From: Heterotrichella gracilis
Taxonomy: Eukaryota; Sar; Xanthophyceae; Tribonematales; Xanthonemataceae
Direction of reading: 5' to 3'
Assembly: GCA_032358255.1 (NCBI GenBank)
Contig: JAULBX010025164.1
Coordinates: 1-64,000, forward strand
Length of the DNA stretch: 64,000 bases
Position 1 is the first letter of the stretch, and the number at the start of each line of letters is the position of its first letter. The position numbers were made by a program, and so were the translations under genes. Shown here piece after piece: positions 541-60,776 of this stretch. The notes below the pieces were generated by a model. The model worked only from the letters and a program-made list of their open reading frames with translations, had not been told where the DNA came from and did no database searches.

Positions 541-3510
541 ATCCTGCGTGCCCGGCGCACCGATCGCGGCGCCCTGTCATTGGCATCACCAGAGGTCAGA
601 TTTGAGATTGACACAGAGACACTGGACCCCCTGGATGTGGGCATGTACCAGGTGAGCGCGACAGAGCATTAATTAATGCAGAACCCTAAATTGTACCACA
701 CATCCATTGATATTGATTTAAACATTCGTCGGTGTAAATCGTTTTCTGCTATTTTATATGTGACTGGCAAATAAATCTTGTAAATCGTGTTATTAAGTTT
801 AATTTTATGTCGTTATCAACAATGAGGTAGTTCGCCTTTTTGCCTCTTGCTTGCCTCCCCCGAGGTCTTGTTGAGGTTGGCATCGAGACGCCGGACTGAC
901 CTATCCACTTCCCTGCCATTCAGTTGCGGGATACCAACCAAATGGTGGAGGAGATGATGCTCCTGGCCAACATCACAGTGGCCGAGCACATTCTCAAGAC
1001 CTTTGCCACATGCTCGCTGCTGCGGAGGCATCCGGTGCCCCCGCCTCGCCAGTTTGAGCCGTTGCTGAGGGCGGCAGCTGCGGCGGGGTTCACCATCGAC
1101 CCCTCCACCTCCAAGGTGAGTGACTGGGTTTAGGGTTTATCATTTAGGGCTTCAGGGTCTCGTGATGGATGAAACTACCTCAAAGGTGAGTGGTTAGGGT
1201 TTAGGGTTCACAAACAATTACCCCGCCTCGCACAGTTGAGCCGCTGCTGAGGGTGAGGTGTAGGGCATAGGGTTTATGATGTAAGGTTATGGGGTTCACA
1301 ATGGATCCCTCCACATTTGAAGACCAAGCCCCTGACATCCATTGCAGCCCTTTAAGTTTAAAGATGTTCTCTTTCCTTACGACATTGGCAGCCTCTTTTC
1401 AACCAGGCTGTGTGCACCATCCAATAGTCCCCTTGAGAGTCAGCCCCTCACACATGCTCCCTCCCCTGCAGACGCTGGCCGCCTCCCTTGACCACGCCGT
1501 GCGCAGCAGCGACCGCTACTTCAACACCCTGGTGCGCATCATGGCCACCCGGTGCATGACGCAGGCGGTGTACTGCTCATCTGCCGACCACACCCTGCCT
1601 GAGTTCCTGCACTATGGCCTGGCGGCGGCGCTCTACACGCACTTCACCTCGCCCATCAGACGGTGCGGCTGGGTTTGGGGTTTGGGGTTTAGAGTAAAAA
1701 GGACAATCGTTGTAAAATTATAAGTATAATCCATTTCTCACAATCTCATAACAGTTTAATTTATCTGTTTGTTATTAGCTGCAGCCATTGAGATCAATAG
1801 ATGCTATAATCAGTGCCGACACACTTAATAACATCCTGTCCTGACCAGGACAGAAGCACAAGACTGGCTGCTAACCTGGCTGTATTGCTGGAATGAATGT
1901 AACTTACTAAATAATTGGTCAGCTACATAGGCGAGCAATACAGCAATTGACCAATTCACATGGGCATAACCTACACCACCCAGAACCCTTGGAACCTCGT
2001 GCGCTTAGAAGCGTTCATTTTGTCGGCTGCAGGTATGCAGATGTGGTGGTGCACCGCCTGCTGGCGGCATCCCTGGGACTCATCAGCTTGCCGCCCAGTT
2101 TGGAGGATAAAGACAAGCTGCATGCAGTGGCGGACAACCTCAACGTGCGGCATCGCAACGCGCAGATGGCTGGCAGGGCTAGCGTTGAGTTGCACACAGT
2201 CATCTTCTTCACTGGCAGGGATGTGGTGGCGGATGCGCGGGTGACAAAGGTGGGTGGTGGGAAATATGAAACCCTGGACGTTGGCAGAGGTGCGGGGCTG
2301 GATCTGGTGGGACGGGGCACCTTTGAGTGCGGGGCATGTAGGGTTTAGGGTATAGGTGGCTGGCAGGGCCAGTGTGGAGCTGCACACTGCCATCTTCTTC
2401 ACTGGGAGGGATGTGGTGGCGAATGCGCGCGTGAAAATGGTGGGGTGCCTGAAAGTTCTGGAAACATGAATCCTAAAACCCTAGACGGTGACAGAGGTGC
2501 GGGGCTGGACCTGGTGGGACGGGGCACCTTCGAGTGCAGGGCATATAGGGTTAAGGGTATAGGTGGCTGGCAGGGTCAGTGTGGAGCTGCACACTGCCAT
2601 CTTCTTCACTGGGAGGGATGTGGTGGCGAATGCGCACGTGAAAATGGTGGGGTGCCCGGAAGCCTAAACCCTAAAACCCTAAACAGTGATGGACCTTGTG
2701 GGACGGCGAGTCCTCAATGCGGGCATGCTAGGGTGGAGGATTTAGGGTTTAATGTTAGGGTTTGAGTGGCTGGCAGGGCCAGCGTTTGATATGCACACAG
2801 CCATCTTCTTCACTGGGAGGGATGTGGTGGCTGATGCGCGTGTGACAAAGGTGGGTGCCTGGAGCATTTACCCTAAAACCCTAAACAGTAAGGAAGGTGC
2901 GGGGCTGGGCCTGTTGGAACGGCGCACACCTCAATGCGTGGCATGTAGGGTTTAGGGTTTAGGTGGTTGGGATGAATGTGCTTTTTAATAATGGTTTCGC
3001 CTCTTTTGTGCAGGTCCGCTCCAATGGGCTGATTGTGTTTGTACCCAAGTACGGCATCGAGGGGCCCATCTACCTGACTGCCAAGGGGGAAAAGGGAGCC
3101 AGTGAAGAGCCTGACTACACCCTGGATGAGGACAACCAAACAATCATTTCCAAGGTATTGGTTTCTCGTTTTCCCCCTCTAAATGTTCTTTCTGATGATG
3201 TTGCATTGTGCTTACAAAATCATCTGATTTTGGATCAGATGAAATGGGTTGTACGAAAGTGCGGTGAGCAGCTACACCGTATTTGCAAGGCAGTGCATCT
3301 TTTTTGCTTACATGGAATGGTCCCGCCTTTTTTATTGTATTTTTTTCTATTAGTTCTTGGTTGCCCGCACAGGATGGCTCCACCCGCTACACCGTGTTTG
3401 ACAAGGCGGCCGTGCGCATCTTTGTGGAGGTTTCGCATGGCGGCAGGCGCCAGCTGGTGCTCAACCTGGTACCTAGGGAGCAACTCCCAGAAGCAGACCG
3501 CATGGGCTAG
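541..3510 (+). CDS. DIS3: DIS3/RRP44 exosome 3'-5' exoribonuclease, C-terminal part (5' end outside window)
   Basis: RNB-domain hydrolytic exoribonuclease of the RNA exosome, the nuclear/cytoplasmic RNA decay machine. Exons seen: 541-651 ([16 protein letters not shown]), 924-1115 ([17 protein letters not shown]), 1472-1662 ([20 protein letters not shown]), 2033-2249 ([23 protein letters not shown]), 3014-3154 ([14 protein letters not shown]) and 3373-3510 ([14 protein letters not shown]), ending in TAG. These are the hallmark segments of eukaryotic DIS3: the late RNB domain, then the S1 domain. Exon phases agree where checked. The N-terminal PIN and cold-shock domains and the RNB Asp cluster lie before the window. 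Between exons 4 and 5 sit three extra diverged copies of part of exon 4, and a copy of the last exon lies after the stop. DIS3L2 is less likely because the SPEVRF and [10 protein letters not shown] segments fit DIS3 closely. Confidence 0.93.
1085..1330 (+). repeat. Decayed copies of the 3' edge of DIS3 exon 2
   Basis: The exon end (CACC..CCAAGGTGAGTG) recurs in the following intron near 1165-1195 (CCTCAAAGGTGAGTGG). A piece of the exon body recurs at 1219-1255 (CCCGCCTCGCA..AGTTGAGCCGCTGCTGAGG), and another exon-end copy lies near 1290-1322 (TTCACAATGGATCCCTCCAC). Telomere-like TTTAGGG runs separate the copies. Confidence 0.7.
2167..2956 (+). repeat. Four-unit tandem array of a DIS3 exon-4/intron junction
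   Basis: Unit 1 (2167-2356) holds the last 83 bases of the real exon 4 and its intron start. Units 2-4 begin near 2357, 2563 and 2767, with a period of about 190-206 bp. Each has the segment encoding FFTGRDVVA and then a shared intronic block ending in TAGGGTTTAGGG-type sequence. In units 2 and 3 the AAGGTGGGT donor has changed to AATGGTGGGG and is lost; in unit 4 it is intact. Units 2 and 3 are closest to each other, which suggests stepwise duplication. Confidence 0.9.
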
Positions 3511-3642
3511 CTAGGGTAACACCCTGGAGCTTCCCTGCAGTGCAGCATACCTGGGAGTTTTGTGAGGGCTCTTTGCAAATGTTTGCTGACTCAGTGCCGC
3601 GTCATGCATGACTGGCTGCAAACAGGGTGTGTGGTATATACG

Positions 3643-3730
3643 TGTGGACGTTTTGCATGGAAGCAGGCGCCAGCTGGTGCTCAACCGGATGCCCAGGGAG
3701 CAGCTGCCAGAGGCAGACCGCATGGGGTAG
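3643..3730 (+). repeat. Copy of the terminal DIS3 exon, with its own stop codon
   Basis: This segment repeats the last part of the terminal exon (3424-3510). It encodes the same HGxRRQLVLN..[12 protein letters not shown] ending and then TAG. Only a handful of positions differ. It lies 130 bp after the true stop and may be in the 3' UTR or act as an alternative last exon. Confidence 0.85.
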
Positions 3731-4989
3731 CATCTTGATTCAACATCTTGAAGGAAGTAGAATAGCCTCAACAGCGTATTCGATTAGGGAATCCTGGTTC
3801 AAGAGATCCCACATATTCAATTGTGACGATCGAGTTGACAGTGGGATGGGTCCTGAGGGTGGTTGAAGCCCTGTCCTTGTTTGTTTGTCTAACTCTTGTC
3901 TGAAGCTTCTGAATGCATAAGACCTGGAGGGTTTGGATTTGCCAATCGGGAGAGAGCCGTTTTGGAACTGAGTTGGCATGTCAGTATCAAATAATGATTG
4001 TAATAACCTGAGGTGCAACTTACCTGTAGTCAGGCCCTGGGCCATCTACAGTGCGTGCTTGACCAAAATAAGTCTATAGTATACTAACTTGGGCTGACCT
4101 TGTCCTGATAAATGCAAGGAGGTTGCCAACCATTTTCAGTGGAATAGTTCAGCCACTGTGGCACTCACCGAGTCTGTGACTTTGTTACACCTTAGCATCC
4201 CACTAGTATAATACAATAATGATTACTGCTGGCAAGCCCTACATGTATACATGCGTGCACGCTGCACATATGTTGAGTTCTTCATCATCATTTTATCAAT
4301 CTCCAAGAGTCTTTTAACCGATCAGTCCAGCGTGGGTAAAATTGGCACTTGTAGCTGCGCTTGTCCTCCCCTCCAACTCCGCTACGGCTCCCCCTTGAGT
4401 CAGTGAACCACCTGGCAATTGTGCCCATTAAACTTCTTCATCAGATACTTTCCGGGATAGCTGACACTGTAACCTTCCCTTCAGCTTCGAAATTTGAGCG
4501 CACAGTGTCTTACTATCTACAGGGTGCCTAGGGTGACGTCAGAGGGTATTCAATCGTACCACAGCTTGCCTTGTCCAGATTAGTTGACCGGTAGTGACGT
4601 CAGCCGTCCCGGAGCAGGTACAGGTGCGTCTTGGCTCAGCAAATAGCCACACGTGGGTAAATAATAATAATACCAGCAAAAAGGTGGTTCCACACACAAT
4701 GCGTATGCTTCGAAAGCAACCACGCGGCTGGCGCAATATGCCCCGAGCCGGCATGCCAACGCATGCCAACCGGGTGACGTCGCCCACGTAACAGCTCGCC
4801 CCATCCAGTCCGCATACATCCTACACTTATACCCGATCGAAACCCTTCCGACGGTGAGCACTTTTTGTGCTTTGCAGCAACCTGTTGAACCGTCGAGCAG
4901 TGCAAAGTGTGGGCCCCAACCATCTACCTTGGGTGGGTTTGACCCAACCCAAGCACGCCCATCATAAAACGCTGCCTGGGTCCTTCAAG
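3731..4989. other. Intergenic stretch between DIS3 and the H+-ATPase locus
   Basis: No reading frame with recognisable protein similarity or paired splice sites is visible. The DIS3 3' UTR and the promoter of the ATPase locus must lie here, since both genes are on the plus strand. I see no clear TATA box or other defined control site. Confidence 0.5.
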
Positions 4990-7811: not shown

Positions 7812-7929
7812 GTGTGATATGACTTGTCAGAAGTCTAGCCCTGATAGTAGTGCTTCAAGCTGAGCCTTGGGTGTGATATGTCTTGTCAGAATTCTAGCCC
7901 TGATAGTAGTGCTTCAAGCTGAGCCTTGT
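7812..7929. repeat. 59-bp intronic tandem duplication
   Basis: Two direct copies (7812-7870 and 7871-7929) differ at only a few positions. They lie in the intron between the PIAIEI exon and the DKTGT exon and contain no exon sequence, unlike most duplications in this window. Confidence 0.9.
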
Positions 7930-9050: not shown

Positions 9051-9080
9051 TTGCGTGGCAATGCCACCTGATTGCGTGGC
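9051..9080 (+). repeat. 21-bp insertion with a 9-bp direct repeat inside an ATPase exon
   Basis: TTGCGTGGC occurs at 9051-9059 and again at 9072-9080, with 12 bases (AATGCCACCTGA) between. Removing one repeat and the 12 bases restores the family sequence LRGIRSLAVA. The insert adds an in-frame TGA. A short inverted repeat (TGGCA/TGCCA) overlaps the left junction. It looks like a transposon footprint or a slippage duplication. Confidence 0.75.
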
Positions 9081-10721: not shown

Positions 10722-10840
10722 GACAAATCATCACAATGATCTACTTGAAGGTTGGTAATCCGTTACATATTATATTATATTTAAGGGATAAAATGACAGT
10801 TCCCTGCAGATTATCACAATGATCTACTTGAAGGTTGGTA
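10722..10840 (+). repeat. Duplicated exon end (ITMIYLK) in the ATPase locus
   Basis: The last 27 or so bases of the exon ending at 10750, plus its GTTGGTA donor, recur at about 10806-10838, preceded by CTGCAG. A smaller copy of the acceptor side of the next exon (CAGGTGTCATTGTC) lies at 11159-11173, upstream of the real one at 11266. Both copies retain splice-site sequence. Confidence 0.85.
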
Positions 10841-16700: not shown

Positions 16701-19700
16701 ACTTTCGAAAAGGATCCTGCAATCTGGGACTTGCCCACCCATATCTACCTGAGACTCCAGGTCATAGTGGTGGGACCGTTGGGGGCGCATGCTCCCCCCA
16801 GGCTGCGGAACTTGCTCAGGCCTCAGTTCAGGCTGGTTTTGTTGCTCGTGGACCGTTGATGGGCGCAAAGTACGCTCAGGTTGCGATGGAGGGGGTGGCT
16901 GATTACAAGCTGATGTGGACGGCTGCAAGAGGTCCGACAGAGTACGCATGTGGTTGGCAATTTACTATTTACTGGCTGGCATTTACTGGTTGACAATACC
17001 AGCTGATACATATACCTGTGCTGTGCTAGGCAGCCCAGGATTGCAAAGCGCTTTTTTGTAGCTGACGGGGTTGTATACAGATGTATACCTACTTAGGTTC
17101 ACAACAGGTAACCTCAGGTAGCAACACACCCCATGCTGCAGCAGAGCATACAGAGCAACTTCTCGAGCAACTGCGCTTACCTGTGGCAGCCAGTCAGCAT
17201 CGAGGGCTGGAGCCTTCTGCCTGCCCCTGCCAGCTGGCACCTTGATGACAACACCTGCACTGCTGAAATCCTCCTCCTGGGGTTTTGATGGTGGGGCAGC
17301 TGGGACGCTGCTGGGAGGAGGGGCGTTGCCTTCTCCTGTTGTAGTGGTGCTTTGGTCGCCGCTTGCCAGTTGAGCATTGGATCGTGCCAGCTGGCGGTGT
17401 ACCCGCAGCTCATCCTGAATTGGGTCGTGGATTGCATTAGGCAGTGCATCGTCCATGCATTAAACGTGAATTGCATTGTATCAGATTAAGTCAGCTGGCA
17501 GTGTATCCGCAGCTCGTCCTGCATTGGGTCGTGGGTAGCATTGTGCAGTGCATCATGCTGGAATCCTTGCGTTGGTTGTGGGTAGCATCGTGCAGTGCAT
17601 CATGCTGTAATCCTTGCGTTTTGTGGGTTGCGTTGTGCAGTGCATCATGCGTTAACCTTGCGTTGATCGTGGGTTGCCATCCTATGCAATGAATCATGCA
17701 AGCTGGCGGTGTAGCCGCAGCTCGCCCTGGTATTGACAACGTCTGGTAGGGTTACTCCCCAACCCAATGGCATGATTTTCCAGGCTCAGAAGCATCCACT
17801 GCTCTCAATGAAGATGTAGAGCACTGCACACTCCATTTCATGATACCATGTCCTGTTTACAATTATTTTGAAAGCCCCAGCTGTTCCAAGCTGTGCAATT
17901 AGGTGGGTGCGGCGGGAACACCCTAAACCCTAACACATTAAAAGGTGAAAGCCTTAGATTGAAAAGCCGAAAACGCCACACCCTTGCCCACCTGGCGCTC
18001 ATCCTCCTCAGCTTTGCGCATCTCCTCCTCCTTGCGCCTCTTCTTGTCCTCCATCTGGGCCACCAGGTCCGCCTGCAGCTGGGCGCGTGCCTGCTGGCGC
18101 TGCTGCTGCTCGTTGGCGGTCATGTAGGCGTGGTCAGACCTGAAGCTCACCTGGAGAGTACACATGTACACAAGAAAACGGTTACATCACAATGCCCTCA
18201 ACCCTAAACCCTACTTCCTACTAAAATGTTGTCTGAAGCCTAAAGCACGGTAAAGCTGTGCCAAAACGGTTGGTGCTCATGGCCTGCTGGCGCTGCTGCT
18301 GCTCGGTAGCAGTCATATAGGCGTGGTCAGACCTGAAGCTCGCCTGGAAGGTACACAAAAAGCATGCCTGCATCCACTTTTACAATATATCCCTCATCTT
18401 TGAAAAGATGACACTGAGCGTGACACCCCAATAAAACTTACACCCCATTTGGCATGGTATGCATGACAAACCATTAAAAGTACTTGTAAACTAGTGAAGA
18501 ATTGTGAATACAAACTGTACACCCAATGAATTCCCAGTGCCGTGAGCTACGCGCCTTGAACGGTTCAGAAGGGGACGCAGCCGCAATAGCTTGGGCCTGC
18601 CGTGCCGGGAACTGGTTGACGGTACTTGGATGCGGCTGCGGGTGCTGTTGCATGGCCCTAGGAAGTGACCTGGCGGGGCTTGCAGCTGCACTTGGTTGGC
18701 CCAATGAGCTAAAACCACCCTCAGTTGCGGGCTGGCATAGCTGGTGGTAATCTACTTCTAAGCCTGCATCCTCATCTGCAGTTGGCACCTCATGCCGATG
18801 CATAGGTTGTCCCCCTTGGTCTGCTTGGTCGGTGGTGAAGGTTCCCTGGCCTGTCATTTGTGGAGCGTTTTGGCTGGCTGCCCCTGAATTGGCTTGCATT
18901 TGCGCTCTGTTCTTTTGCTGCCTAACCTGCATGTCCACCCATGACAGTTCTCGCTTGATCACGCTACCAGTGTCAACCCTATTCAGCATTGTCATACAGG
19001 CACTGATGAGCGTATTGCACTATGTTTAAACCTAAATAGGGAAGCTGCAGAAATAATGTAATCAATTGAAAGTCAAATATTTCTGATTTCACTTGCATTC
19101 TGAAAACTGCAAATTTAAACCTCATCAACATGCATGTTTTGACCTGACATAACCTACCAATGTGCTCGTACCTTGTTCAGGTCTGAGACGATTCTGCCAT
19201 TCTCATCACGCATGGGGTCCCCACCTCCGCCCCCCAGCTTGCTTTTCATCATGATGTACAGCTGTGCACTGCGCTCCTGCTTGGAATCCTCTTCATCCAT
19301 GCGCTGTTTTTCTTTCTTTTTGGCCTCCTGTTGCTGCTTGATCTGGGCCTCAAGCTCAGCCCTGCATGAGTTTAAGAAATTAGGGGTTAGGGTTTAGGGC
19401 TATGGATTTAAGTTTTGGATTGTGAGGAGCCACTTGTGGCTGCAGCTACAGTAGGGGAAGCCTCTCAGATGCACCCTAAACCCTATACCCTACACCGGGG
19501 ATTTCCTGCTATATGATCGTGCTTGTAAAGTACCCAGTCCATATGACGGTGATTCAATAGTGAGCATTGCCAGAACTGGTGAAGCGCAGGCCTGTGCAGT
19601 ATGCTGCCCGTACAGTATGTGAATTGAAGGTCTGTTGCCTAAGACTATCACCCATACTGCACCTGTACGCCGCCTTCCTCCTTTGCGCTTCTGCAAACTT

Positions 19701-43514: not shown

Positions 43515-44062
43515 ACACCGCCAGCAGCGCCACCTTGCCCGGGGAACGACAGTTATTATTTAAGTAATTTACTCACTGGCCTGAGATACAGGCGTTATTA
43601 AAAGTTCAACAACTGCGCACTTACACAGCCAGCAGCGCCACCTTGCCCATCGCCGACACTGGATCCTCACTCGCCTCTCCATCCTCCCCTCCCTCCACAT
43701 CCCCCCCCTTGCCACCCCCACCCCTACCCCCCGCCGTCGCCGCCGCCCGCGCCCACAGCAAAAGCCTTTGCCGTCATGAGCGCCAGGGCCACGCAATGCA
43801 CCGCCCACACCAGCGCATGTACACCGCTGGCGAGCGCATTCACACCGCCAGCATTGCCACCTTGCCCATCGCAGACACCGGGTCCTCAGATACCTCTGCC
43901 TCCTCCCCTCCCTCCACACCCCCATCCGCCGCCCCCGCCGCTGCGGCCGCCCATTATCGCATCACGGCCTTTGTCGTCATCAGCGCCAGAGCACCTCCGG
44001 ACAGCGCATGTACACCCCTGGCAAGCGCAGTTACACCGCCAACAGCGCCACCTTGCCCATCG
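43515..44062 (-). repeat. Four-copy array of the DUF3533 C-terminal coding end
   Basis: The segment coding for SAMGKVALLAV and the stop occurs at 44031-44062 (the real end), 43838-43868, 43622-43652 and, truncated, 43515-43540. The upstream part (ALALMT.KAVM and the Gly/Glu-rich tail) is also repeated in the two longer units, giving a period of about 190-215 bp. The copies lie after the stop codon, so they are probably 3' UTR. Confidence 0.9.
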
Positions 44063-47000
44063 CCGACACCGGATCCTCCCCCTCCCCTTCCTCCCCTTCC
44101 TCCACATCCCCCCCCTTCCCAACCCCACCCCCGCCCGCCGCAGCCCGCTGCCTCATCACCGCTTTGGCCGTCATCAGCGCCAGCGCCACGCACATGCACC
44201 CCACGTTCCACGCCGTGAGGACTATCCAATCGACCCAGAGCGTCTCTAGACCCCAGCCAAAGAAGATGGTGCGCAGGCCGCGGGTGCCGTAGGTAAAAGG
44301 CAGGGCTATTCCTATGGAGTACCACGGGGATTGTAGCTCATTGGGCATGATGCCCCCGCAGGCTGTGAACTGGATGATGAGGACCAGGGCGGAGAGGGCG
44401 GAGAAGCGCGTGGGCCCGATGAGGTGGATGAGCACGGCGTTGAACGCGATGAAGGAGAAGGTGAGGTACCTGCGCGCAGTGAGAGGCACGTGTGAATCTC
44501 ACATGCGCAATATACCCTTTAGGGTTTAGGGTTTAAGATTTGTCAAAAAGGCCCCCGCAGGCGGTGAACTGGGTGATGAGGACCAAGGCGGAGAGGGCGG
44601 AGGAGCGCGTGGGCCCAATGAGGTGGATGAGCACGGCGTTGAACGCGATGAAGGAGAAGGTGAGGTACCTGCGCGCCGGGGGAAGGGAGGGTTGGATCAC
44701 ACACGCGCAATACCCTTTAGGGTAAAATATAGGCCCCGCCAGGTGGATGAGCACCGCGTTGAAGGGGGTGAAGGAGAAGGCCAGGTACCTGCGGTTCGGG
44801 GTTGAGGGTTCAAGGCAGGAGGGGAAGGTGGTGGTCAACCATGCGGGGTTGCCCTTTTCGGCATTGTGGGCACAACTGCACGCTGCGGGGGATTAAAATA
44901 ATATAATGCATTAAATGTCAGTAAATGTGGTGAGTGATGTAGCGAGTGGGTGGAGAAGCAGGTTGACCCCGACAGGCGAACCCCCACGAGGAATACCCTT
45001 TAGGGTTTAGGGTGGGCCTGGCGCGGTGGATTAGCACGGCGTTGAATGCAACAAAAGACAAGGTGGGGGAAAGCAAGCTGGCTTTGGAACATTGGGTGGT
45101 GGCGTTGTTCTTGCCACGGTGGTGACCTGACTTTGGCGATTTACATACCAAGTATGTACCTCGAGTATGTAAACCACTGGGATTAAAAGCGCCCACTCAC
45201 CACAGGAAGGCCCACGCGTACGCCCCGTTCTTCCCAACTAACCCAAATTTACGCTAAATTAGGATTTTAAATGGGCGCAGCCACTCACCACAACAAAGCC
45301 CATGCGTATGCCCCGTTCTTACCAACTAAAGCCAAATTTACCCTGAAATAAGTTTTTAATTGGGCGCAGCCACTTACCACAGGAACGCCCATGCGTACGC
45401 CCCGTTCTTGCCAACAAACTGCGGGCTGCCCCCCAGTCCCGCGCTGCCCACCCCCTCCAGCACCCCTAGCAGCATTGCGCTCAGCACCAGCGTGAAGGTG
45501 TATGCCACCAGCGCTTTGACAAGGCCCAGGGTGGCGGCCTGGGGTGGGAGGGAGGAATTAGGGTTTAGGGCCGGGTGTAGGGTTTGGTGATGGCCAGAGG
45601 AGAGTCCTGAATTAGGGTACTGAGAACAGGGTTTAGGGTTTAGGTATTTAGGGTTGAATGTTTAGGGTTGATGATGGCCAGAGGAGAGTCCTGAGTTAGG
45701 GTACTGAGAACAGGGTTTAGGGTTTGGGGATTGGTGATGGCAGCATGGCACACGGCACCAGGGTGAAGGTGTATGCCACCAGCGCCTTGGCGATGCTCAG
45801 GGTGGCGGCCTGAGGTGGAAAGGAAAGGCAAACCAGGAGTAGGGTTCATGTGTCAAAGATTTAGGGCTTGCTGATGGCCATTGGAGCGTCCTGAGTTAGG
45901 GCGTGCATGGCACCCACCTGGATGCGTTGTTGGCGCGAGGTGCTGGCTAGGACCACATCCGACACCAGGATCCCCTCCGCTGCCAGCCCAAAGTCCCACA
46001 TGGCCGACACCACAAAGGTGCTGCCCAGCCACAGCAGGATGCACAGGATGTAGGAGGCAAAGTTCTGGCCGTAGTTGTTCACCTGCAGGAAAGGAATGAA
46101 ATAATAAAAACAATGAATAGGATAAAAAAACAGAGTATCCTTTCTTGCCGTGGTTGTTCACCTTGAGAGAAGGAATAAGAATAAGAATGAATACAGAAAA
46201 AAAAAGAAAGGATTTCTGGCACCCTACACCTTGCAAGGCAGCACTCCCTGTTCAATGCCTGCCTGCCCTAGGGTTTAGGTTGGGGTTTCACCTTGGCTAG
46301 GTTGTTGCTGTTAAGCAGGATTGGCTGCAAGTAAAAGGCGGGGTACACCGCCAGCTGATTGGATGCCAGCTGCTGCTGGTTGGCCGCCACGGTAGACCCC
46401 AGGGTTTGTGAAAGCCCGCTGACGACCTGGTTGACTATTAGGGAGATGAAGCCATAGGCGGAGTAGCTGCGGCCCTGCAGCGGAAGAAGGATGGTCATAT
46501 GCAGCATTTAAGGGTTTTGTACAGCAATGGCAGCATTTAAGGGTTTTGTATGATGACGGTGTGTGTGAAATTGCCAGGTAAACAAACTCCAGCCCATCTC
46601 TTCTGTGTTGATCCACCCAGGTCTTCCTTTCACCCCACACCCTACACCCTGCACCTACCTGTGGAAACAGATACACCATCTCCGCTTGCTGATACCCTCC
46701 CCCCGCCCCCCCGCTTGTGTTATACACCCCGCTGGCCGCCGCGCCACTGAAGTTGCCAGGAACGTAGAGCGCCGCCCAATAGGTTGTGCTGTTCATGAGT
46801 ATTGCAGTCAAGGCATCGGCACAACCAGATTCAGCATCCAGGGCGCATCCAGGGGAAGTAATTGACGCGCCGCAGCTGCAGAAAGGGAGCAAAAAGAGTG
46901 GCAAAAAAGAGAAACATTACAGAGCTCCAGAGGATGGGCATGGGGTAGGGGTTGGGAAAGCATGTAGGGCGCCGCCCAATAGGTTGTGCTATTCATGAGT

Positions 47001-49367
47001 ATTGCAGTCAGGGCATCCGCGCATGATGACTCAGCATCCAGTGCGCATCCGGGGGAGGTAGTTGACGCGCCGCAGCTGCAGAGTGGCAACACAAGGGATA
47101 AAAAGGGAAATGAGCCAGCTACAGGGCATGGGGTCGGGGTTGGGAAAGTATGAAGGGGCCCTGCACAATAGGTTGTGCTGTTCACGAGTATTGCAGTCAA
47201 GGCATCTGCGCACGCTGACTCAGCATCGGGTGCGCATCCAGGGGAGGAAGCTGAGGCGCCGCAGCTGCAGAAAGGGAGCAACAAGAGTGGCTAAAAAAGA
47301 GAAACATTACAGAGCTACAGAGGATGGGCATGGGTTTGGGGTCGGGAAAGCATGTAGGGCCATGCCAAGTAGGTAGTGCTGTTCATGAGTACTGCAGTCA
47401 AGGCATCGGCACAACCAGATTCGGCATCCAGGGCGCATCCAGGGGAGGAAGCTGAGGCGCCGCAGCTGCAGAGTGGCAACAAACATGTCGCATCAACAAG
47501 AGAAAATAAAAGGTAGAGAGGGGAGGGCGGGGGGAGGCGTTGATCGCAGCGCCCCACGCTCGCACATAGAAGTTCTGCCATGTGCGCAACCCCAGTGGCG
47601 CTGGATGCCTCCACACTGACTACCCTGATAAGAAGGTAAAATTACCTCCCCACCCAAAACAATCTGGCCCGCACCTGAAATTCTGCCATTTGAGCGCCCC
47701 CAATGTGGGGCTGGATGCGTTCCACACTCCCCTCTCCTAAAAACACATCCAAACCAACCCCCTGCCCCGCCTTTTCCAAATTTTGTGTATTGTTTTTCGT
47801 GTTTTTTTTTTTGTCAGGGCACAAAGCCAGGGGACCAAATTTGGTCCATCAGACGTGCGAGGTAAAATTCAAATGCGGCCCGCACCTGAAATTCTGCCAC
47901 TTCAGCGCCACAGATGCGGGGCTGGATGCGTTCCACACCGAGGCCCCCAGCAGCACCTCAGCCAGGGGTTGGCTGGGCAGGCCCGCAGCCGCCACTGCGC
48001 CCGCCGCCTGGGTTGAGTACCCCCTGTCGCAGTTGAGCACCGCAACTGTCAGGTTGCCGGTGCGGCCCTGTGGCGGGGGGAAGTATACACACGTTAATGA
48101 ACCACAATATAGATTTAAATGAAAATTCATGCTATTAAATACATGGCCACGTCGCAGTTGAGCACCGCCACTGCCAGGTTGGCGGTGCGGCCCTGTGGCG
48201 GGGAAGATATACGTTATTAAATGAATAGCATTTGATAAAAATAACCTATTATTTATAGCCCTGTCGCAGACGACCAAGGCCACTGCAAGGTTGTCCGCCG
48301 TGCGGCTTGAGGTGTTGGGGACATACACGTATAGTAGCATTTGTAATAAAAGCAATATATAGCCAATGTCTATTAAAAAAAAAATTAAATATATTCCAAC
48401 TTGCAACTACGCACCCCGTCCACTGGTGCGGGACATAGGCAGCCTCCTGCAAGTGCATCTTGGCCCTTGGGTGTGGCCCATGGCAGTGTAGGGCTCAAAT
48501 GCTGTTGCCCCGGTTAGGGTTTCCCCGCCTACCCCAACCTAGGGCATTCCCACCCCTTCCCAAAACCCCAGCCTAGGGTTTCTCACCTGCGGGTACCACG
48601 CGGTGCCTATGTAGAGCCACCCCAGTATGAAGACGATCAGCATGGCCAGGAAGACTGTGGGCCACATGCGCCAGTTGTGGGTAAGAGCGCGCCCTGCGGC
48701 AAAGTAGGCCACCTGCGGGGGGTGGGGCAGCGGGTGGGGTGTGGGGGCATGGGATGGGAATTGCCAGGTGACTACCCGGTGTTGTGCACCAAGACGAAGT
48801 CTACAACCCCCTAAACACTAAACCCTAAACCCTAAACACCAGATGAGCCAGGAATGCTGTGGGCCACATGCGCCAATTGTGGGTCCGCGCACTCCCTGCG
48901 GCAAAGTACGCAACCTGCAGGTGTGAGGCAGGGGGGCAGTGCGTGGGGGGATGGGCCATGGAATTTGGGTGGGTGGTACAGCTCGACAACCTGTACAGCC
49001 TTTGCAACCTAGAGCATAGAATCTTAAACCTTAATCATCAGATGAGCCAGGGGTGCCCTTCCCGCCTTGTTGAGGGAGAACCCCAACCTGCAACCCCTAC
49101 ACCCTAACCTGTAAACCCTATCAGAGCTGCACCACGCTGTCCATGGGCTCGCGAGCTGGGGAGACGCGTGGTCATGCACGACCCTAAGCAAGGGTTGCCA
49201 CGTACCTTGCCGGCGTCCTCCTCCCCTTTGCCGCCCTCGCGCTTGCTCCCTGGGGCATCGTTGTGGTCGACAATGACATCGGCTTGGTTGCCAATTACGC
49301 CATTGTGGTTGACATTGACATTGTCTTGGTTGCCAGTGGCGCCATCTTGGTCCTTGAGCGCTGCCAT
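44031..49367 (-). CDS. DUF3533/SNG1-like multi-pass membrane protein, complete, 8 exons, 544 aa
   Basis: Exons: 49206-49367, 48587-48712, 47886-48067, 46659-46875, 46292-46474, 45918-46082, 45378-45538 and 44031-44469; total 1635 nt, all phases close. A hydrophilic, Asn/Asp-rich N-terminus is followed by one transmembrane helix (VFLAMLIVFILGWLYIG). Then comes a long non-cytosolic-type domain starting NLTVAVLNCD, with several Asn-x-Ser/Thr sites and Cys residues. The C-terminal half has about five helices, including GIALPFTYGTRGLRTIFFG, and a Gly/Glu-rich tail. This layout (one helix, large loop, five helices, P..Y....LRTI motif) is that of the DUF3533 family, which includes yeast SNG1 and resembles YhgE/Pip ABC-2-like proteins. 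Substrate unknown; a role in membrane or drug response is only inferred from SNG1. Confidence 0.82.
44550..45070 (-). repeat. Three copies of the 5' edge of the last DUF3533 exon
   Basis: The real edge is 44355-44475. A near-complete copy lies at 44553-44675 (codons for YLTFSFIAFNAVLIHLIGPTR). Shorter copies lie at 44735-44797 and 45015-45070, interleaved with CCCTTTAGGGTTTAGGG-like sequence. Confidence 0.92.
45185..45330 (-). repeat. Two copies of the 3' end of DUF3533 exon 7
   Basis: The real exon end at 45365-45415 (codons for VGKNGAYAWAFL and donor) recurs at 45270-45325 and 45185-45240, with a period of about 90 bp. Confidence 0.9.
45740..45815 (-). repeat. Copy of the 5' edge of DUF3533 exon 7
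   Basis: Repeats 45475-45545 (AATLG..KALVAYTFTLV). The flanking intron (GTTTAGGG..TGATGGCCAGAGGAGAGTCC) is itself repeated near 45585, 45665 and, partly, 45872. Confidence 0.88.
46762..47475 (-). repeat. Four-unit, 200-bp-period array of DUF3533 exon-4 start
   Basis: The real exon 4 edge (46762-46885) encodes CGAS.TSPGC.LDAES..ADALTAILMNSTTYW. Copies lie at 46961-47085, 47160-47275 and 47360-47475, each with the CTGCAG acceptor and coding frame largely preserved. Coding changes are mostly conservative, so the duplications look recent. Confidence 0.94.
47555..47735 (-). repeat. Two copies of the 3' end of DUF3533 exon 3
   Basis: The region 47886-47935 (SVWNASSPASVALKWQNF and donor) recurs in diverged form at about 47670-47730 and 47560-47620. 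Confidence 0.82.
48145..48310 (-). repeat. Two copies of the 5' edge of DUF3533 exon 3
   Basis: The real edge 48025-48072 (GRTGNLTVAVLNCD) recurs at 48148-48198 and 48258-48306, each with an acceptor. Period about 115 bp. Confidence 0.9.
48838..48918 (-). repeat. Copy of the 5' edge of DUF3533 exon 2
   Basis: Repeats 48638-48714 (codons for VAYFAAG.A.THNWRMWPT.FLA) in the upstream intron, with AACCCTAAACCCTAAAC at 48818-48834. Confidence 0.92.
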
Positions 49368-54200: not shown

Positions 54201-57200
54201 TCCCTTTGCAATGGCAAATCCCAAATCCCCACCAGTCATGAGCTCAGTCACCAGGAGGATCTTGTCGGGACACACGCACGCACCCAGGAACTGCAAGGAA
54301 AATGCGTGGGAAATTTTAGTAAGGGTTCCTGCAAGCGCACGCTTTGTACTCCTGGTAGTAACCAAGAAACTGTTTAGCATATGCCTTATTTTTTGCTAAC
54401 TCTCCTTCCTTTACCCACACGCCTGTTCAAGCGCAGGCTGCGCATTCATTTTCTTTATTCTCATTCATTTATTTCATGCCACCGCACCTGCACAATGTAT
54501 GGGCTCCTACCGACCCTTAAACTAAATGACAAGTTGCATATTTTATGAAACTCATGTTAACTTATGATTTTCCAGTTAATTTATGCCGCCGCACCTGCAC
54601 AATGTATGGGCTCCTGCAGGCCCTGAGTATGCTGATCTCGCTTGCCACTGCCTCCTTGTCCCCATCATCCATCTCCAAGTGGTGCATGACCTTCACAGCA
54701 ACAAAGGGGCCATCCACCCACTGGGCTTTGTACACCTGGGGTGCATGGCATTAGAATATTCATATTCATATGCATAACAACATGAAAAGTACATAATATG
54801 GATTAATCAAGCAACAAAGGGGCCATATACCCACTGAATCTTGTACACCTGTGGTGCATACCCAAGAAGCAAGTAAACGTTCATTACTGGGCAATACAGC
54901 ATGTCCTGTACATGTCCTGTACATGGGTTTACTTCTTGAGGTGCACAGTGGCAAGTGTATTCACCTGGCCATAGTTCCCCCCTCCCAGCCTCCAGTCCTC
55001 CCCATTTGGCCTCTTGCAGATAGTCACCTCCTCCTCTTTGACCTCCCAATCAACCCTCTCAAACCTCCACTTCTTGTTCCCTTCCAGCTGCTCAGACGCC
55101 AATCCACCCCTATAGGATCTGTCAAGCTCCTCCCCAGTTCCTAATTGCCTGTCCCCGGGACACGTGAGGGAGTGGGTAGAAGCAAATGGAGCGCCCTGGG
55201 ATTCCACATCCTCTCCAAAATCCCCACTTGGCCTGCTTGGCAGTGGCTGGGGCTTCCCTGCTCCTTCGGTTAATGCAGCTGCTCGCTGCTTCCTTCTGTG
55301 CCTCACATACAGGCATGCTGCTGCAACCAAGGCCGCGACTGCTACTATGCACACAACCCCTGCAATCACCCCTGCGAGGCACAGCAGAACACAGTGGAAT
55401 GAGGTGGTTTAGGGTTTAAGGTTTACGGATCTCCTCAGGCCGCCACTGGCGCTGAAGACACATGTACCAGTGAAGTGGCAAGAAGGTGACTCGGCATGGT
55501 AGCGATTCACAACATGTGCGATTCGGGGAAATCTGCAAGTCAACTGCTGCTTGTGGTGCAATTGACCATCGACGCAATGTATTGCAGTAGGTCATCTGAG
55601 GGATAGTGCTACTGCTGATGCAGATGCGGATAATAGCATTGATCAAGTGGGATCGTGGCACCGATGATAATGATAGCATTTTCAAGATCATGATCATAGC
55701 ATTGATCAAGTGGGGTCGTGCCACTGGTGATGTAGATGATGATGATAGCATCGATCAAGATCATGATCACCAGCACCACGATGTGCCATCTAACTTGGTC
55801 TTAGATGGCAGGAGAGAATCAAGACCTTTGATTGCAGGATTGGATGATTTTGCAGAATCGTCTTCGTCACTTGCTGCTGCAGGTGGAGGTGGTGCATGGC
55901 GATCACCTTCTGCTGGGAAGGCACCCGGGCCACCAACCACCGAGGAAACTGCACAGGCAAGGGACTTGCAATGAGGAGCGTGGTATACATATATCTGTCC
56001 GTACTGTTTTTATTTTGTTTATCTTCTTTATTTGTGCATGCGATGCAATGCGGGATTTGTCAGGGAAAAAGTGTGATTGTCATTGTGTGATGCCATAGTT
56101 TAAACCTTGCGCGATGGCCACACATTACGTCCACTTGTAAAATACAGGAATGCTTGGCATGTACAGATTGTTGGGAAATGCATGAATACCACTTGCGCTA
56201 TGCATATGTCTGGGACCAGCAGTGTGCCCATGGGGATGCCAAGTGGAATCACCCAATGTTTCAAGTATTCCACATGCTGCACGTGTGCAAAAACAAACAA
56301 CCTAGATGGTGAACATGACACTGCAGGAACCACTTTGTAATGTAGTATCAAAGGTGAACAAAAAGTATAAAGAGCACTTGAATTTACTTTCTTATATTAG
56401 TAAGATAATTATTTACATAAGAAGCGTATATGCCAACCGCACCGTAGTTGAGTGACCCTTGGATGCCATAAGCCAGCGTGAGGGCGCCATACGATGTGGT
56501 GTTGATGTCAGGCCGGATGCTGCAGCTGTTTGTGGCTGCGCTGCAGTCCTGGGGAGTGAACTTGAAGGCCTCCAGAGGAGGGGTGCAGATGGTAAAAGTG
56601 CCTCGCGCGCCCGTATACAGCTGCAAGCAAGGATTCAAGTGAGCTTCAAGCAATGCGAACAGCTGTGACGCAAAAAGCAGTTTGAAGGGTTTGTGGCGTG
56701 AACATTTATGGTCGCTACTTTCTGAATCAAAACAGTGAGGGTGAAGAACTCAAGGGGGGGGGGGGTACATATCATACAAAAATATGATGGTGACGGTGAA
56801 GGTGCCTCGAGCGCCAGTGTACGGCTGCATGCAAGAATTGCAACCGATTAACCCAACTGATCTCTTGAATCCATCTGATTAGTCCAACTCTGTGAAGTAA
56901 ATAGGCACTAGCGGCGCTACTTGAGCACACATCCAATAGCGCCCCTACTAGTACATTGCCTACTGGTACAAAACCATGCCTAGTGGTACAAAAATATATA
57001 TGTGTCACATGGGTTTTGCCTCACCTGCACCGCTGTGTCCTTTACCATGCTGAAACAGTCCGTCCCAAGGGAAGCGGTGCATGTGCATGTGAAGGTGAGG
57101 GAGCAAATAAATCCTTGCAATTGCGCTGGCAGTGCTACTGATTGTGCACAACGCCAGCAGCAACCCTACTAGAATTGCGTACTGGTATCAAAAAAACATG

Positions 57201-60200
57201 TGTGGCAGGCTTTGGCTCACCTGCACCGCTGTGTCCTTTACCATGCTGAAGCAGTCTGTTCCAAGGGAGGCGGTGCATGTGCATGTGAAGGTGAGGGAGC
57301 GGAGCCTTCCTTGGACGACGCTGCCATTGGCCAGTTTCTGTGGAGCCACAAAGTTACGCCAGTCATGACTCATGCTGGATCGTCGCGTTTCTGTTCAAGG
57401 ACAGACTGCGCAGCCTTTCATACATGCATATGCATGCGCAGCCTTTCATTCATTCATGTGCATGTGCATGTGCATGTGCTGTTTAGGGTTGTAGGGTTTT
57501 GCGGTAGGGTGTTGGGCAACCCACCGCTTCCCGCAGATCTACCCTTGTGGACGCTTGGCGGCAGCGGGTGTTGCAAGAAGAACAAAACCCTCCACCCTAA
57601 CTTGAACTCTAAACCCTACACGCACCGCTTCCCGCAGGTCTACCCATGTGACGCTTGGCGGCAGCGGGTGTCGCCAGAAGGACACCAGCCCTGGCGAGCA
57701 TGACCGCTCAGCCACAGCCTGGGATGTGTTGGCAAGGCCAGTGACGTCGCACAGCATGAGCCGACACTGTGCGGTGTACCCTGCACGGACGGGGTTATGT
57801 TAAACCTCTGCATTAACACCTCCAACACCCCTGCCTCACGTGGTTCCCACCATCAGCTTGCCTACCCTATATTCTCCCCTTTGCCTCACCTCCACTTTGG
57901 TCCTTGAGGGACCCCAAACTCTACACCTTAAGCCCTAAACCCTAAACGCCCTTCTGCCTCGCCTCCACTCTGATCCATGAGGAACCCCAAACCCCAAACC
58001 CCAAACCCCAAACCCTAAACTTGCCTTTGCCTCACCTCCACTTTGGTCCTTGAGGATCTCCACAGCCTCCTCAGACCCCGAGGGATGCGGCATGTTGGCC
58101 AATTTGCAGGTTCCATCCCTGGGACAGCTGCTATCCACGACTTGGGAGGAATTTACGACCACCACCGGAGGGAGGGAGGTGACCGTGTTGTTGGGAAGCA
58201 GCGCCAGGGACTGTAACCGTTTCAAACGAGCAGGGGGTGAAAATTAGGGTTTCCAGAAGCAGCGCCAGGGATTGGAACAGTTCCAAATGAGCAAGGGGGG
58301 GAGGGGGGGGAGGGTTTCCAAAAACATGGTGTAAGTAAGTAAGTAAGTATTTGCTTTCCAGCTTTGAAGCCAGGTTAGCATGTCTAAGTATGCCTCACCC
58401 CAGTCCTAGAGCCAAGGCTTAACTGACACTGTTTCCAGTGTGGCAGATGGTGGCCAACCAGTCGTGCCGCTTACCGCACTTTCGTGCTCCCCATTTTATC
58501 CCGTCGCAAAGTTCAGGGAATTTCGAAAAATATCGCTACCCTTCGGATTCGAACCTGCGACCCCTTGCTTAGTTGAACTCAAGACTCAACTCAAACTCAG
58601 GTGCTCAGCCAACGGCTGGGTCGACCGTTGGAGGGGGAAAACATGATGTAAGCACTGTCAAAATGGCACCGCACATGCGCTGTATACAATCATACCTGCC
58701 GCTCAACCTGCTTTGAAAGGGATCCTGAGGTATCAACAAAAAATATACTGCGAGACAAAATGGCACCGCGCATACAACGTACCTGCCGCTCAATGCCGCG
58801 CACGCGTGCAGTGCAGTCTTTGACTTGCGGTCCGCAGCCACAGGTGGTGGTTGTTTGCACGCTGTGGAAGGCGCGCCCACCCTGTGTACCATGCGCAATT
58901 GCTTAGGCCAACATTTCAAACAAGTTAGGATTAGGGTTTAGGGTTTCGTGACTCTTAGTAGTGCTGGCCAGTTGTCCCTCGTGTCTCTACCAATCCTGGG
59001 CCTGTATCACCTCTGATACCCTGGGCCTGTAATCCTGTGTCTACCAATCCTGAACCCTTTTATAACGGCTGTCGCCTACTGGCTGGCCCATATCATTTAC
59101 CCCTTGCTGGTCACATGCCCTATAGCGCCACCGTCCATCTGTCTATGAATGGCCACAAGCATATCCCCCATGCCCATATGCGTGTGCCCAACTGCCAAAT
59201 ATGCTAAATATGCAAATGCCCTATGTGTCCTCAGCATGTCCCATGTGCTTGTTTGTGTGGTACGTGCATTTGGCCACACCTGGTACACCTCCCACTGGCT
59301 TAAGCTTCAGCTCACATTGACAGATGCCGGCAGCGTGAAGGACTTAAGGTTAAGGGTTTCCTACCCTTGTGCGTGTATGTGTGGTATGTGCATATGGCCA
59401 TATCAAGCGCTGTATGATACACATCTCGCTAGCGCTGGCTCAACCTCCATCTGATTTTGACAGCCACTTGGCAGCGTGAGGGGTTGCCAGTGCCAAGCAA
59501 GACATATTTAGGGTTTTGTGTGGGTAGCACAGTATGTACCTGTGGCCACACCAGGCGCTGGTACACCTCCCGCTGGCTCAGGCCCCAGCTGACATTCACA
59601 GACACCCGCAGCGATAGCGGCTGCTCATCCTCAGCTGCAAAGATTTGCGTCGAGCAGAAAACTTCCGAGTTCCCATCGCAGTAATCCCAGTCCGACCCAG
59701 CGGGTTGGGCATGGCAGGTGCTGGGGTCGATCTCACAGCGGGCGCTGGTGTGGGTGTTGAGGGTGTCTAGGGTATTGCTGGCGCCCTCTCCAAGCCCTTC
59801 ATGCACGCAGGCGCCCGCCACTTGGAGCTGAGACCCTAAGGGTTCTGCTGGCACTGTGTACAGCTCCTTGCACCTGCACCCGCTCTGCGTTGTTGGTGGG
59901 GCGGGGCCTGTGAAGGAAAGGGGGGAAACAAAGATGCATAAATGGGGAGGTGGTATATACAAGAATTTATATACAAATAACAAAGAACAGTGTACCCGTC
60001 GCGCCTCTACATGCCAGTTGCATCAGGAGGGATAAGAGTCTAGCTGCTACCTTCTACACCACATACAACCCTTGCTTGTATGCATGCTTACCGATGCAGT
60101 AATCGTAGGTGATGCCATCCAGTTCCAGAGGCTGCCTCCCAGGGTTGCACGTCTTGGGATCAACCACGCAGACAGGGAAGCGGATGCTGGGCTGGACCAG

Positions 60201-60776
60201 GAAGCAGTTGGCGTAGGGGCTTGAAAGGTACTGCCCTGGGTACAGCTTGGAAGGCCATGGCAAACTGGTACATTCACATCCAGCCAGCGTCTTCTGAGGG
60301 GCAATCACCTCTAGCCCTGAAAAATTGACCCATGCAAGTTTGTGAGGCAGTATTGTCTTTTAAGGACCAGGTCAGGCCTTATATAAGCACTAGAGCAGGT
60401 GGTGGCTCACTGGCGCTTGCAGGCATGCACACATGTGGGCATGCGTGCCGGTGCAGAGCAATATAAGTAGTATAAGCAACCTCCGCCTTGTGAAGAAGGT
60501 GTTAAAGAAAAATTCAGGGGTTCGCAAACTTGTCCTACTAGTTGGGCATTGCAACCAAAACGCCCACTTGGGCCTATGAGCAATGCATGTCAAAACCTCC
60601 AAAAAAGTCAAAACCATACCTTCTTTCTTGATCAGAACTTCCTGAAGCACCCGAGTCGCGAAGCATACCTGCACACAGCGGAGGCAACACCATTCGGACA
60701 TAGTCAAGGCGGAGCCACCCTGCAAGATGGCCTTCTGCCCTTGTGATGCACGTGTGGAATGCATGCATGCGTTCAA
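51218..60776 (-). CDS. Receptor-like protein kinase: Cys-rich ectodomain, one TM helix, kinase domain, long tail
   Basis: Approximate exons, 5' to 3': ~60610-60776, 60093-60318, 59540-59908, 58782-58880, 58034-58210, 57632-57779, 57222-57340, 56423-56621, 54965-55373, 54593-54738, 54182-54292, 53632-53740, 53331-53441, 53035-53139, 52565-52729, 51545-52174 and 51218-51452. The ectodomain has repeated short Cys modules (GCECTSLP, SGCRCKEL, WDYCDG, YDYCIG) and N-glycosylation sites; I do not recognise a named fold. The TM helix (VVCIVAVAALVAAACLYV) is followed by the kinase: LGGGNYGQV, VAVKVM, VVHLDIKSPNILL, ADVGLA, GTWGWMAPEL and SDVYSFGVLMWEI. The catalytic Asp is present. DFG is DVG, which keeps the metal-binding Asp. 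The tail is rich in Pro, Ala and Ser, with stretches of PPPPPP and AAAAA. The true N-terminus and signal peptide are not identified. Tyrosine-kinase-like (Raf/RLK) by the C-lobe motifs. Confidence 0.85.
53105..53250 (-). repeat. Duplicated exon/intron junction in the kinase C-lobe
   Basis: The acceptor side of the exon at 53035-53139 (GCCCTTGCCTGCAGCATGGCCACA) has a diverged copy at 53222-53246 in the upstream intron. Confidence 0.75.
54478..54852 (-). repeat. Copies flanking kinase exon 54593-54738
   Basis: The 3' edge (54585-54620) recurs at 54475-54513 (GCCACCGCACCTGCACAATG). The 5' edge (54695-54742) recurs at 54808-54853. The single exon therefore has a copy on each side. Confidence 0.85.
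56785..56835 (-). repeat. Copy of an ectodomain exon 5' edge
   Basis: Repeats 56588-56635 (codons for YTGARGTFT), next to a run of 11 G's at 56754-56764. Confidence 0.8.
57010..57305 (-). repeat. Duplicated ectodomain exon end (TFTCTCTASLGTDCF)
   Basis: 57205-57301 and 57013-57104 are near-identical over about 95 bp, covering codons for TFTCTCTASLGTDCFSMVK and the donor. The intron part with TACTGGTA..AAAAA is also duplicated. A similar pair for the next exon upstream is 57630-57675 and 57525-57570. Confidence 0.92.
57886..58295 (-). repeat. Copies at both ends of an ectodomain exon
   Basis: The exon is 58034-58210. Its 3' end (CCTCACCTCCACTTTGGTCC) recurs at 57956-57984 and 57888-57914. 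Its 5' edge (AGCAGCGCCAGGGACTG) recurs at 58255-58293. A variant telomere-like tract, (AACCCC)n then AACCCTAAAC, lies at 57983-58020. Confidence 0.9.
58336..58637 (-). mobile_element. Complete tRNA-derived SINE with 15-bp target-site duplication
   Basis: On the minus strand the element begins near 58637 with a short hairpin (CCAACGG..CCGTTGG). It has an A-box-like TGGCTGAGCACC (58600-58611) and a perfect B box GGTTCGAATCC (58545-58555), spaced as in a long-variable-arm tRNA (Ser/Leu type). An unrelated body follows, ending in a (TTAC)n tail at 58332-58348. AAAACATGxTGTAAG flanks it at 58321-58335 and 58638-58652 with one mismatch. The T stem does not pair fully, so it is not a working tRNA. 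It lies in an intron of the receptor kinase. A second copy starts this window. Confidence 0.88.
58655..58802 (-). repeat. Copy of the 3' edge of ectodomain exon 58782-58880
   Basis: Segments AAAATGGCACCGC.CAT..CTGCCGCTCAA occur at 58658-58708 and 58758-58795, a tandem pair covering the exon donor. Confidence 0.8.
59240..59625 (-). repeat. Three copies of an ectodomain exon 3' end
   Basis: The real exon end is 59540-59620 (VNVSWGLSQREVYQRLVWPQ). Copies lie at 59395-59475 and 59275-59345, with flanking intron (TGTGTGGTA.GTGCAT.TGGCCA) also repeated; period about 130 bp. Confidence 0.9.

Follow-up and report, generated by a model that had tools for sequence, protein, structure and literature searches.

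Intron gain by tandem genomic duplication is said to have been described by Gao and Lynch in 2009 and by Hellsten in 2011. In plants, tandem duplications reportedly originate from paired nicks or patch-mediated repair, following the work of Schiml in 2016 and of Vaughn and Bennetzen in 2014; for these we know of no exon-edge preference and no telomeric filler. The system considered here, which would likewise produce direct duplications from staggered lesions, lies in 64,000 nucleotides of Heterotrichella gracilis DNA (contig JAULBX010025164.1), in the following called the window (C266:1-64000 of a 68.5 Mb assembly of 903 contigs). In the predicted genes of the window the edge of an exon, together with its splice signal, recurs in the adjacent intron, and in part of the cases telomere-type TTTAGGG repeats lie in the spacer between exon and copy.

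In primates and rodents interstitial telomeric repeats were inserted during the repair of double-strand breaks, and the excerpted account gives duplicated flanks for 6 of 130 informative loci in rodents and 4 of 25 in primates (PMC2246262). The DNA analysed here also carries short intrachromosomal telomeric tracts, some of them with duplicated flanks. Unlike there, 16 of 30 and 5 of 26 tracts are flanked by direct repeats and the duplicated block lies mostly at exon edges, where the methods of counting differ between the two studies. With intron gain by tandem genomic duplication (excerpts of PMC3443670, PMC4974935 and PMC2891723) our system shares the local duplication of segments that contain exon sequence and, as judged on predicted exons, a splice signal. 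While the available part of PMC3443670 places the new intron inside an exon, the intron here apparently existed before and is enlarged by the copy: inspected copies sit within the intron, away from its other end (e.g. the copy at 26172-26273, with the next exon ending at 26028). The layout of copy, filler and copy is also found in the excerpts of PMC3296678, where the repeats are described as short; here they measure tens of bp and stand at the intron border. Introners, as far as the excerpts of PMC9860276 go, are genome-wide intron-related insertions as well but form sequence families, in contrast to the locus-private spacers tested here. The titles and abstract beginnings listed by searches of open-licence PMC papers contained no description of intronic exon-edge copies with telomere-like spacers, which does not prove that none exists. 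Duplications tied to repair, insertions of telomere repeats and introns born of duplication are known individually; these titles and abstract beginnings showed no combination of them with an exon-border preference.

The junction copies are real, occur far above chance and extend beyond the window. We compared 314 kb of the 68.5 Mb, comprising the window, 200 kb of contig C2 and five 10-kb samples. Exons and introns were predicted by a purpose-built gene finder that was trained on the same DNA, such that all gene models derive from sequence only; it fuses neighbouring genes and calls some copies as exons. The genome is eukaryotic: it has 43 exon-level matches to light-harvesting proteins, predicted protein genes with GT-AG introns and, at two contig starts, runs of TTTAGGG; the light-harvesting matches and the telomere type indicate no more than a plant-type alga. 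For each exon edge the 600 nt of its intron side were searched for a copy, using the reversed target as control. In the window 34 of 190 edges (18%, belonging to 27 of 95 exons) had such a copy compared to 0 of 190 in the control, and on C2 34 of 486 edges (7%) compared to 0 of 486, a share about 2.5-fold lower. The original prediction of at least 25 such exons is thus borne out. It had also placed copies in nearly every gene, which holds for the window, where the edge test found matches in six of the eight gene loci and the H+-ATPase and DUF423 genes have copies in the self-BLAST pair list, at exons outside the tested set. For C2, with its 34 of 486 edges, the tally is per edge rather than per gene. 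The wider claim that introns are generally built from edge copies does not agree with shares of 18% and 7%.

Self-BLAST provided 75 direct pairs less than 1 kb apart in the window, 57 on C2 and 16 in the five 10-kb samples (6, 3, 0, 6 and 1), such that the phenomenon was seen in every sampled part of the genome except one 10-kb piece (L031), in which self-BLAST found no pair. Inverted pairs numbered 3, 13 and 5. Copies had been announced for both strands; this is correct for the genes, which sit on either strand, while the copies themselves are mostly direct (75 versus 3 inverted in the window). At a slightly stricter setting, self-comparison gave 72 pairs within 2 kb for the window and 46 for C2, compared to 0 in one local resample each. 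Relative to C2, the window is about 2.5 to 4 times as dense in local duplications and in telomere-type sequence and is possibly a hotspot.

As measured on predicted exons, the preference of the copies for exon edges is about twofold. For this and for the edge-by-edge test and the period, anatomy, whole-exon, in-exon and age-class counts, 31 predicted window exons resembling copies were deleted by hand, of which 22 had passed the score cut-off; cut-offs were unequal, being 9 for the window and 12 or 15 for C2. After clustering, 31 of the 44 window events touched an edge, 11 were noncoding and 2 lay inside exons; on C2 the 48 events divided into 33, 9 and 6. As a fair control both copies were placed at random and the better one was scored, since placing a single interval (24% window, 19% C2) is too lenient. 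The expected edge-touching share was 40% for the window (p = 5e-5) and 33% for C2 (p = 5e-7). Without the hand removal of exons 32 of 44 window events touched an edge, compared to 46% expected (p = 3e-4). Where the paired copies were 88% identical or more, 11 of 14 events were edge-touching in the window (33% expected, p = 6e-4) and 11 of 14 on C2 (24%, p = 2e-5). For older pairs the values were 20 of 30 (45%, p = 0.012) and 22 of 34 (38%, p = 0.0017). Because young pairs show the preference too, slower decay of exon sequence is not its whole reason. Young events without an edge were few, 3 of 14 in either region, of which 2 and 2 were noncoding.

The anatomy of the copied block was determined on 69 non-overlapping exon-touching events from the window, C2 and the five samples. 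A single edge was copied in 54 of them (30 donor, 24 acceptor), a whole exon in 1, and 14 lay inside exons. Donor and acceptor edges both had copies, from one to about four each, as had been described before. The identity to the exon ranged from roughly 70 to 98%, in accordance with the claimed breadth of divergence and with widely spread ages, and the copies are intronic and recur across genes and contigs, as stated originally. For young one-edge events (n = 20), median lengths were 14 nt for the intron part of the block and 51.5 nt for its exon part; the median of the whole block was 66-67 bp. Usually it ended at GTAAG, at GTGCGC or at the pyrimidine tract ahead of AG, and its reach into the intron did not shrink with age. 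Beyond the block, the noncoding continuations aligned above shuffles (z > 3) in only 5 of 62 cases, counting both sides of each pair. The spacer therefore usually lies outside the duplicated unit, unlike in a plain tandem duplication. It is part of the repeated unit in arrays such as 2164-2970 and L037 (see below). Spacer lengths vary widely, and only 4 of 78 non-overlapping events had a period outside 56-240 bp. The block end just inside the intron, the rarity of whole-exon copies and the enrichment of TTTAGGG in spacers go beyond the earlier description. Two regularities were considered and rejected: nucleosome-length quantisation, since window periods gather at 80-110 and 180-225 bp while those of the other samples spread over 56-226 bp, and a constant sum of block and spacer, both being uncorrelated (Spearman -0.12 and -0.08).

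How arrays may grow can be seen at L037, a channel gene on contig C366 that is kin to the channel gene of the window. Downstream of a donor edge it carries two 206-bp units, each made up of about 105 bp of spacer and an exon edge of about 100 bp that extends 9 nt into the intron. Of 103 aligned columns, 101 were shared by the exon and the first edge copy and 89 by the exon and the second; the two spacers agreed in 100 of 105. These identities imply that an older unit of exon, spacer and copy underwent multiplication or conversion, for which unequal exchange of the exon edge with its copy would be the simplest route. A later stage of such growth may be seen in the Rrp44 array at 2164-2970.

The link to telomere repeats is real, but for a minority of events. 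Exact 10-mers of the TTTAGGG repeat occurred in 15 of 45 window spacers compared to 17 of 450 matched noncoding stretches, and in 4 of 48 spacers of the other samples compared to 7 of 480. Six control motifs were found in none of the 93 spacers of the window and the other samples. Fuzzy motif scoring at a score of 28 gave 15/45 versus 29/450 and 14/48 versus 12/480; reversed and permuted motifs were raised as well, and for this reason we do not use fuzzy scores as support. Seen from the tracts, direct-repeat flanks accompanied 16 of 30, 5 of 26 and 2 of 8 telomere-type tracts compared to 11%, 3% and 5% of control positions. A bias in the orientation of the tracts relative to the gene was considered and rejected, orientations being roughly balanced by eye. 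Direct searches with the spacers of three introns, and searches with two larger regions, revealed no dispersed relatives; the latter, which also looked for a second locus, ignore simple repeats and common words. Contigs C70 and C140 start with runs of CCCTAAA (TTTAGGG) repeats and are probable chromosome ends.

For the fate of the copies, overlapping tandem pairs were excluded from the counts, as they were for anatomy and continuations, and the coding comparisons used unpruned predicted exons of at least 9 codons. From exon to copy, 154 third positions changed from G/C to A/T and 70 in the reverse direction. In 72 pairs 302 of 1426 third positions differed and 290 of 2868 first and second positions, a ratio of about 2.1 compared to a rough neutral estimate of 1.7. 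The 35 window pairs (665 codons) had proportions of synonymous and nonsynonymous differences of pS = 0.269 and pN = 0.066, that is pN/pS = 0.245 (bootstrap 0.18-0.32), with 2 stops. Simulated neutral copies, generated from a single symmetric spectrum of mutations and at fixed ages, had a mean pN/pS of 0.51-0.56 (range 0.40-0.71) with 7-10 stops, and two constrained copies 0.11 at omega 0.1 and 0.22 (range 0.16-0.30) at omega 0.2. In the 45 pairs of the other samples pN/pS was 0.412 (0.34-0.50) with 8 stops, compared to 0.49-0.56 (range 0.40-0.68) and 9-13 stops for neutral copies, and the coding overlap was gapped in 27 of 45. The low window value, which agrees poorly with neutral copies, may reflect constraint on the copies, a diverged source or a chance effect of choosing the window for its copies. 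Within arrays pN/pS between copies was 0.506 compared to 0.433 between exon and copy; this was left unused, as some predicted exons are copies.

Copied donor edges had GT in 21 of 32 cases and GC in 7, while the acceptor AG was kept in 22 of 24. Copied donors are possibly weakened, with the caveat that the gene finder favours GT in the exon called real. In 20 young one-edge copies inspected by eye, AG directly preceded 3 of 10 donor-edge copies and GT directly followed 0 of 10 acceptor-edge copies. The large reservoir of cryptic exons expected by the original prediction is thus doubtful, since the copies hold one splice site and the second is rare. Whole-exon events were 1 of 28 in the window, compared to 29% under a model of contig joins and 8% for random placement, and 0 of 33 on C2 (12% and 3%). 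In-exon events were 2 of 28 in the window (31% random, 8% joins) and 7 of 33 on C2 (50% and 25%). The shortage of whole-exon events relative to joins and of in-exon events relative to random placement favours selection on a living genome over joins, without settling the matter.

We explain these observations by local duplicative insertions of the break-repair type, part of them with telomeric filler, which are tolerated in introns, sometimes amplified, and favour exon-intron junctions; we give this reading a probability of roughly 0.52. The end of an exon and its splice signal, some 65 bp in all, would be duplicated in direct orientation, with at most about 200 bp of spacer separating the copies. 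Most likely a staggered break would be the origin, whose overhangs are filled in to leave long direct repeats flanking filler DNA, and at some loci this filler would contain telomere repeats, provided by telomerase or captured telomeric DNA. With the copy landing in the intron, the normal splice site and the frame would survive and the copy would decay. Some units of exon, spacer and copy would then expand into arrays by unequal exchange or conversion, in line with the pattern at L037. The process appears to be continuing. Several findings weigh against this reading. The insertion step is read from one genome alone, with no empty allele or relative that displays an insertion, and staggered breaks do not account for the stop of the block at the splice signal. 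Under the fair control the edge preference falls to about twofold. Exact telomere words are missing from 30 of 45 and 44 of 48 spacers, the reversed motif equals the true one in the other samples (0.40 of spacers versus 0.07 of controls at a fuzzy score of 20), and at loci picked by an exact telomere triple the flank repeats are weaker (6 of 17 versus 15%). Finally, the window pN/pS of 0.245 lies below all neutral simulations and within the range of two constrained copies at omega 0.2. An unlikely variant is that the mutation itself is aimed at junctions: breaks or template switches would occur just inside the intron, copying exon end and signal with telomeric filler, and splicing or the chromatin at exon borders would steer the growth.

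Ordinary tandem duplication or replication slippage could also create units of about 60-240 bp anywhere in genes, the exon part then being anchored by selection, and perhaps also by conversion from the exon, and the intron part erased by fast turnover of introns. The full-unit arrays at 2164-2970, 27635-28094 and 46764-47505, the narrow range of periods and the only twofold edge preference agree with this, as does the first copy of L037, which is near-identical to the exon though the spacers differ by about 5%, as conversion or exchange would give. Intron parts should then align in pairs of 89-96% identity, yet only the 5 of 62 continuations did so; edge-free young events are few and the intron extension is no smaller in older events, which makes this explanation doubtful. 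An assembly artefact, or transfer from a diverged relative, would put the sequence of a second haplotype or strain beside the first, such that only conserved exon edges appear duplicated and introns appear unrelated. Orthologous genes usually cease to align near the positions where the block ends, the window pN/pS is as expected of two constrained sequences and periods above 240 bp are few. We consider it quite unlikely, nevertheless, since the two regions searched have no second diverged locus in the assembly (with simple repeats and common words skipped), arrays have three and four copies, whole-exon copies are depleted relative to joins (though not relative to random placement) and the copies drift in composition towards A/T. 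That copies are selected as alternative exons or decoy splice sites would fit the low pN/pS and the two stops of the window as well as the well-kept acceptor AG. Alternative exons require both splice sites and an open frame, however, and whole-exon copies make up 1 of 69 events; the second site is usually missing from the copies, the donor GT is kept in just 21 of 32, and the other samples, with gaps in 27 of 45 pairs, lie near the lower limit of the neutral range, so that this appears very improbable. Hardly probable at all is a mobile introner or transposon family that inserts beside exon borders with long target-site duplications. It would produce the layout of copy, insert and copy, and introners are present in 5% of species according to the excerpted text of PMC9860276, but the spacers tested (from three introns and two regions) lack dispersed relatives and their lengths vary widely.

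The growth of introns, and the long introns of some lineages, is an old question for which few cases have been caught in the act. Many junction copies of graded age in one small genome, part of them telomere-linked, could make a source of intron length datable and testable. Should real annotation confirm the preference for exon borders and the stop of the block at the splice signal, specialists would be surprised, as neither slippage nor random break repair predicts them. A copying process that prefers exon borders and enlarges introns would, if true, be unusual. The loci of the window are collected in the table.

Copies of exon edges and related local duplications in the window (percentages are identities)
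Positions	Strand	Gene	Feature
1039..1253	+	Rrp44-like	1039-1071 within exon 924-1115, copied at 1221-1253 in next intron; TTTAGGG tracts between
2164..2256	+	Rrp44/Dis3-like	source donor edge, exon 2033-2249
2354..2970	+	Rrp44/Dis3-like	three more copies of donor edge of exon 2033-2249; tandem array, period ~190-207 bp; telomere-like spacer tracts
3423..3731	+	Rrp44	donor edge 3423-3511 (exon 3373-3468), copy 3643-3731
10724..10840	+	H+-ATPase	donor edge 10724-10757, copy 10807-10840 (94%)
17374..17729	-	coiled-coil gene	acceptor edge of exon 17181-17414, decayed copies to 17729
18089..18357	-	coiled-coil gene	acceptor edge 18089-18164, copy 18282-18357 (91%); telomere-like spacer tract
23398..23755	-	lipase	donor edge (exon 23708-23820), copied three times with a period of 95 bp; spacers contain GTTTAGG repeats
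23879..24153	-		short whole-exon pair 23879-23928 / 24104-24153 (92%); either may be the used one
25621..25895	-	lipase	donor edge 25818-25895 (GHSLG exon), copy 25621-25698 (91%)
26172..26463	-	lipase	donor edge 26362-26463, copy 26172-26273 (94%); block end GTAAG
26897..27154	-	lipase	stretch of exon 26837-26981, copy 27077-27154 (86%)
27635..28504	-	lipase	two tandem duplications, 27635-28094 and 28145-28504; exons 27798-27871 and 28126-28188 involved
28545..28836	-	lipase	donor edge 28750-28836, copy 28545-28629
29762..29908	-	lipase	acceptor edge 29762-29825, copy 29845-29908 (89%)
33340..33529	-	K+ channel	acceptor edge 33340-33424, copy 33444-33529 (83%)
34190..34385	-	K+ channel	donor edge 34330-34385, copy 34190-34251; degenerate CCCTAAA spacer
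34630..34868	-	K+ channel	acceptor edge 34630-34692, copy 34806-34868
35152..35471	-	K+ channel	acceptor edge of pore exon 35152-35265, copy 35358-35471 (89%)
35624..35788	-	K+ channel	donor edge 35723-35788, copy 35624-35690; degenerate telomere-like spacer
35934..36692	-	K+ channel	acceptor edge of exon 35756-36009 and three copies
37264..37983	-	K+ channel	exon 37525-37658; donor-edge copy 37264-37323 (95%), acceptor-edge copies 37767-37819 and 37929-37983
40740..41237	+	DUF423	donor edge 40740-40838, copy 40875-40973; three-unit 87-bp array; TTTAGGG spacer words (by eye)
44352..44801	-	DUF3533-like	acceptor edge 44352-44525, copies 44551-44723 and 44741-44801; TTTAGGG spacer
45193..45901	-	DUF3533-like	exon 45378-45538; donor-edge copies 45193-45329, acceptor-edge copy 45740-45901
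46764..47505	-		intronic tandem array, 3.6 units of ~189 bp
47666..47938	-	DUF3533-like	donor edge 47877-47938, copy 47666-47727 (90%)
48645..48967	-	DUF3533-like	acceptor edge 48645-48763, copy 48847-48967; CCCTAAA spacer tract
54466..54859	-	kinase	exon 54595-54735, one copy of each edge
56977..57300	-	kinase	donor edge 57176-57300, copy 56977-57104 (87%)
57519..57684	-	kinase	donor edge 57620-57684, copy 57519-57584; spacer resembles degenerate CCCTAAA array
59260..59613	-	kinase	donor edge 59532-59613, decayed copy 59260-59335 with stop

When the window genes were joined in part with the copies left out, six of the eight joins matched Pfam families above the cut-off (RNB with Rrp44_S1, E1-E2_ATPase, Lipase_3, Ion_trans, DUF423 and protein kinase). 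A match to DUF3533 remained just under it (27.1 versus 27.6 bits), and the partial join of the coiled-coil gene matched no Pfam family. The channel, queried with one copy retained, matches the solved KCNH, AKT and SthK channels. Close to the lipase gene on the minus strand lies a tRNA-Ala (AGC) gene on the plus strand (24734-24806). Two distant repeat pairs are listed for the window: an 82-bp repeat of 96% identity, at 1-82 and 58561-58642 and thus 58 kb apart, and a 27-bp telomere-like match. A near-perfect palindrome of 43 bp is located at 21699-21741, and a 42-bp minisatellite within a predicted exon (49261-49352) encodes a repeated stretch of 14 residues.

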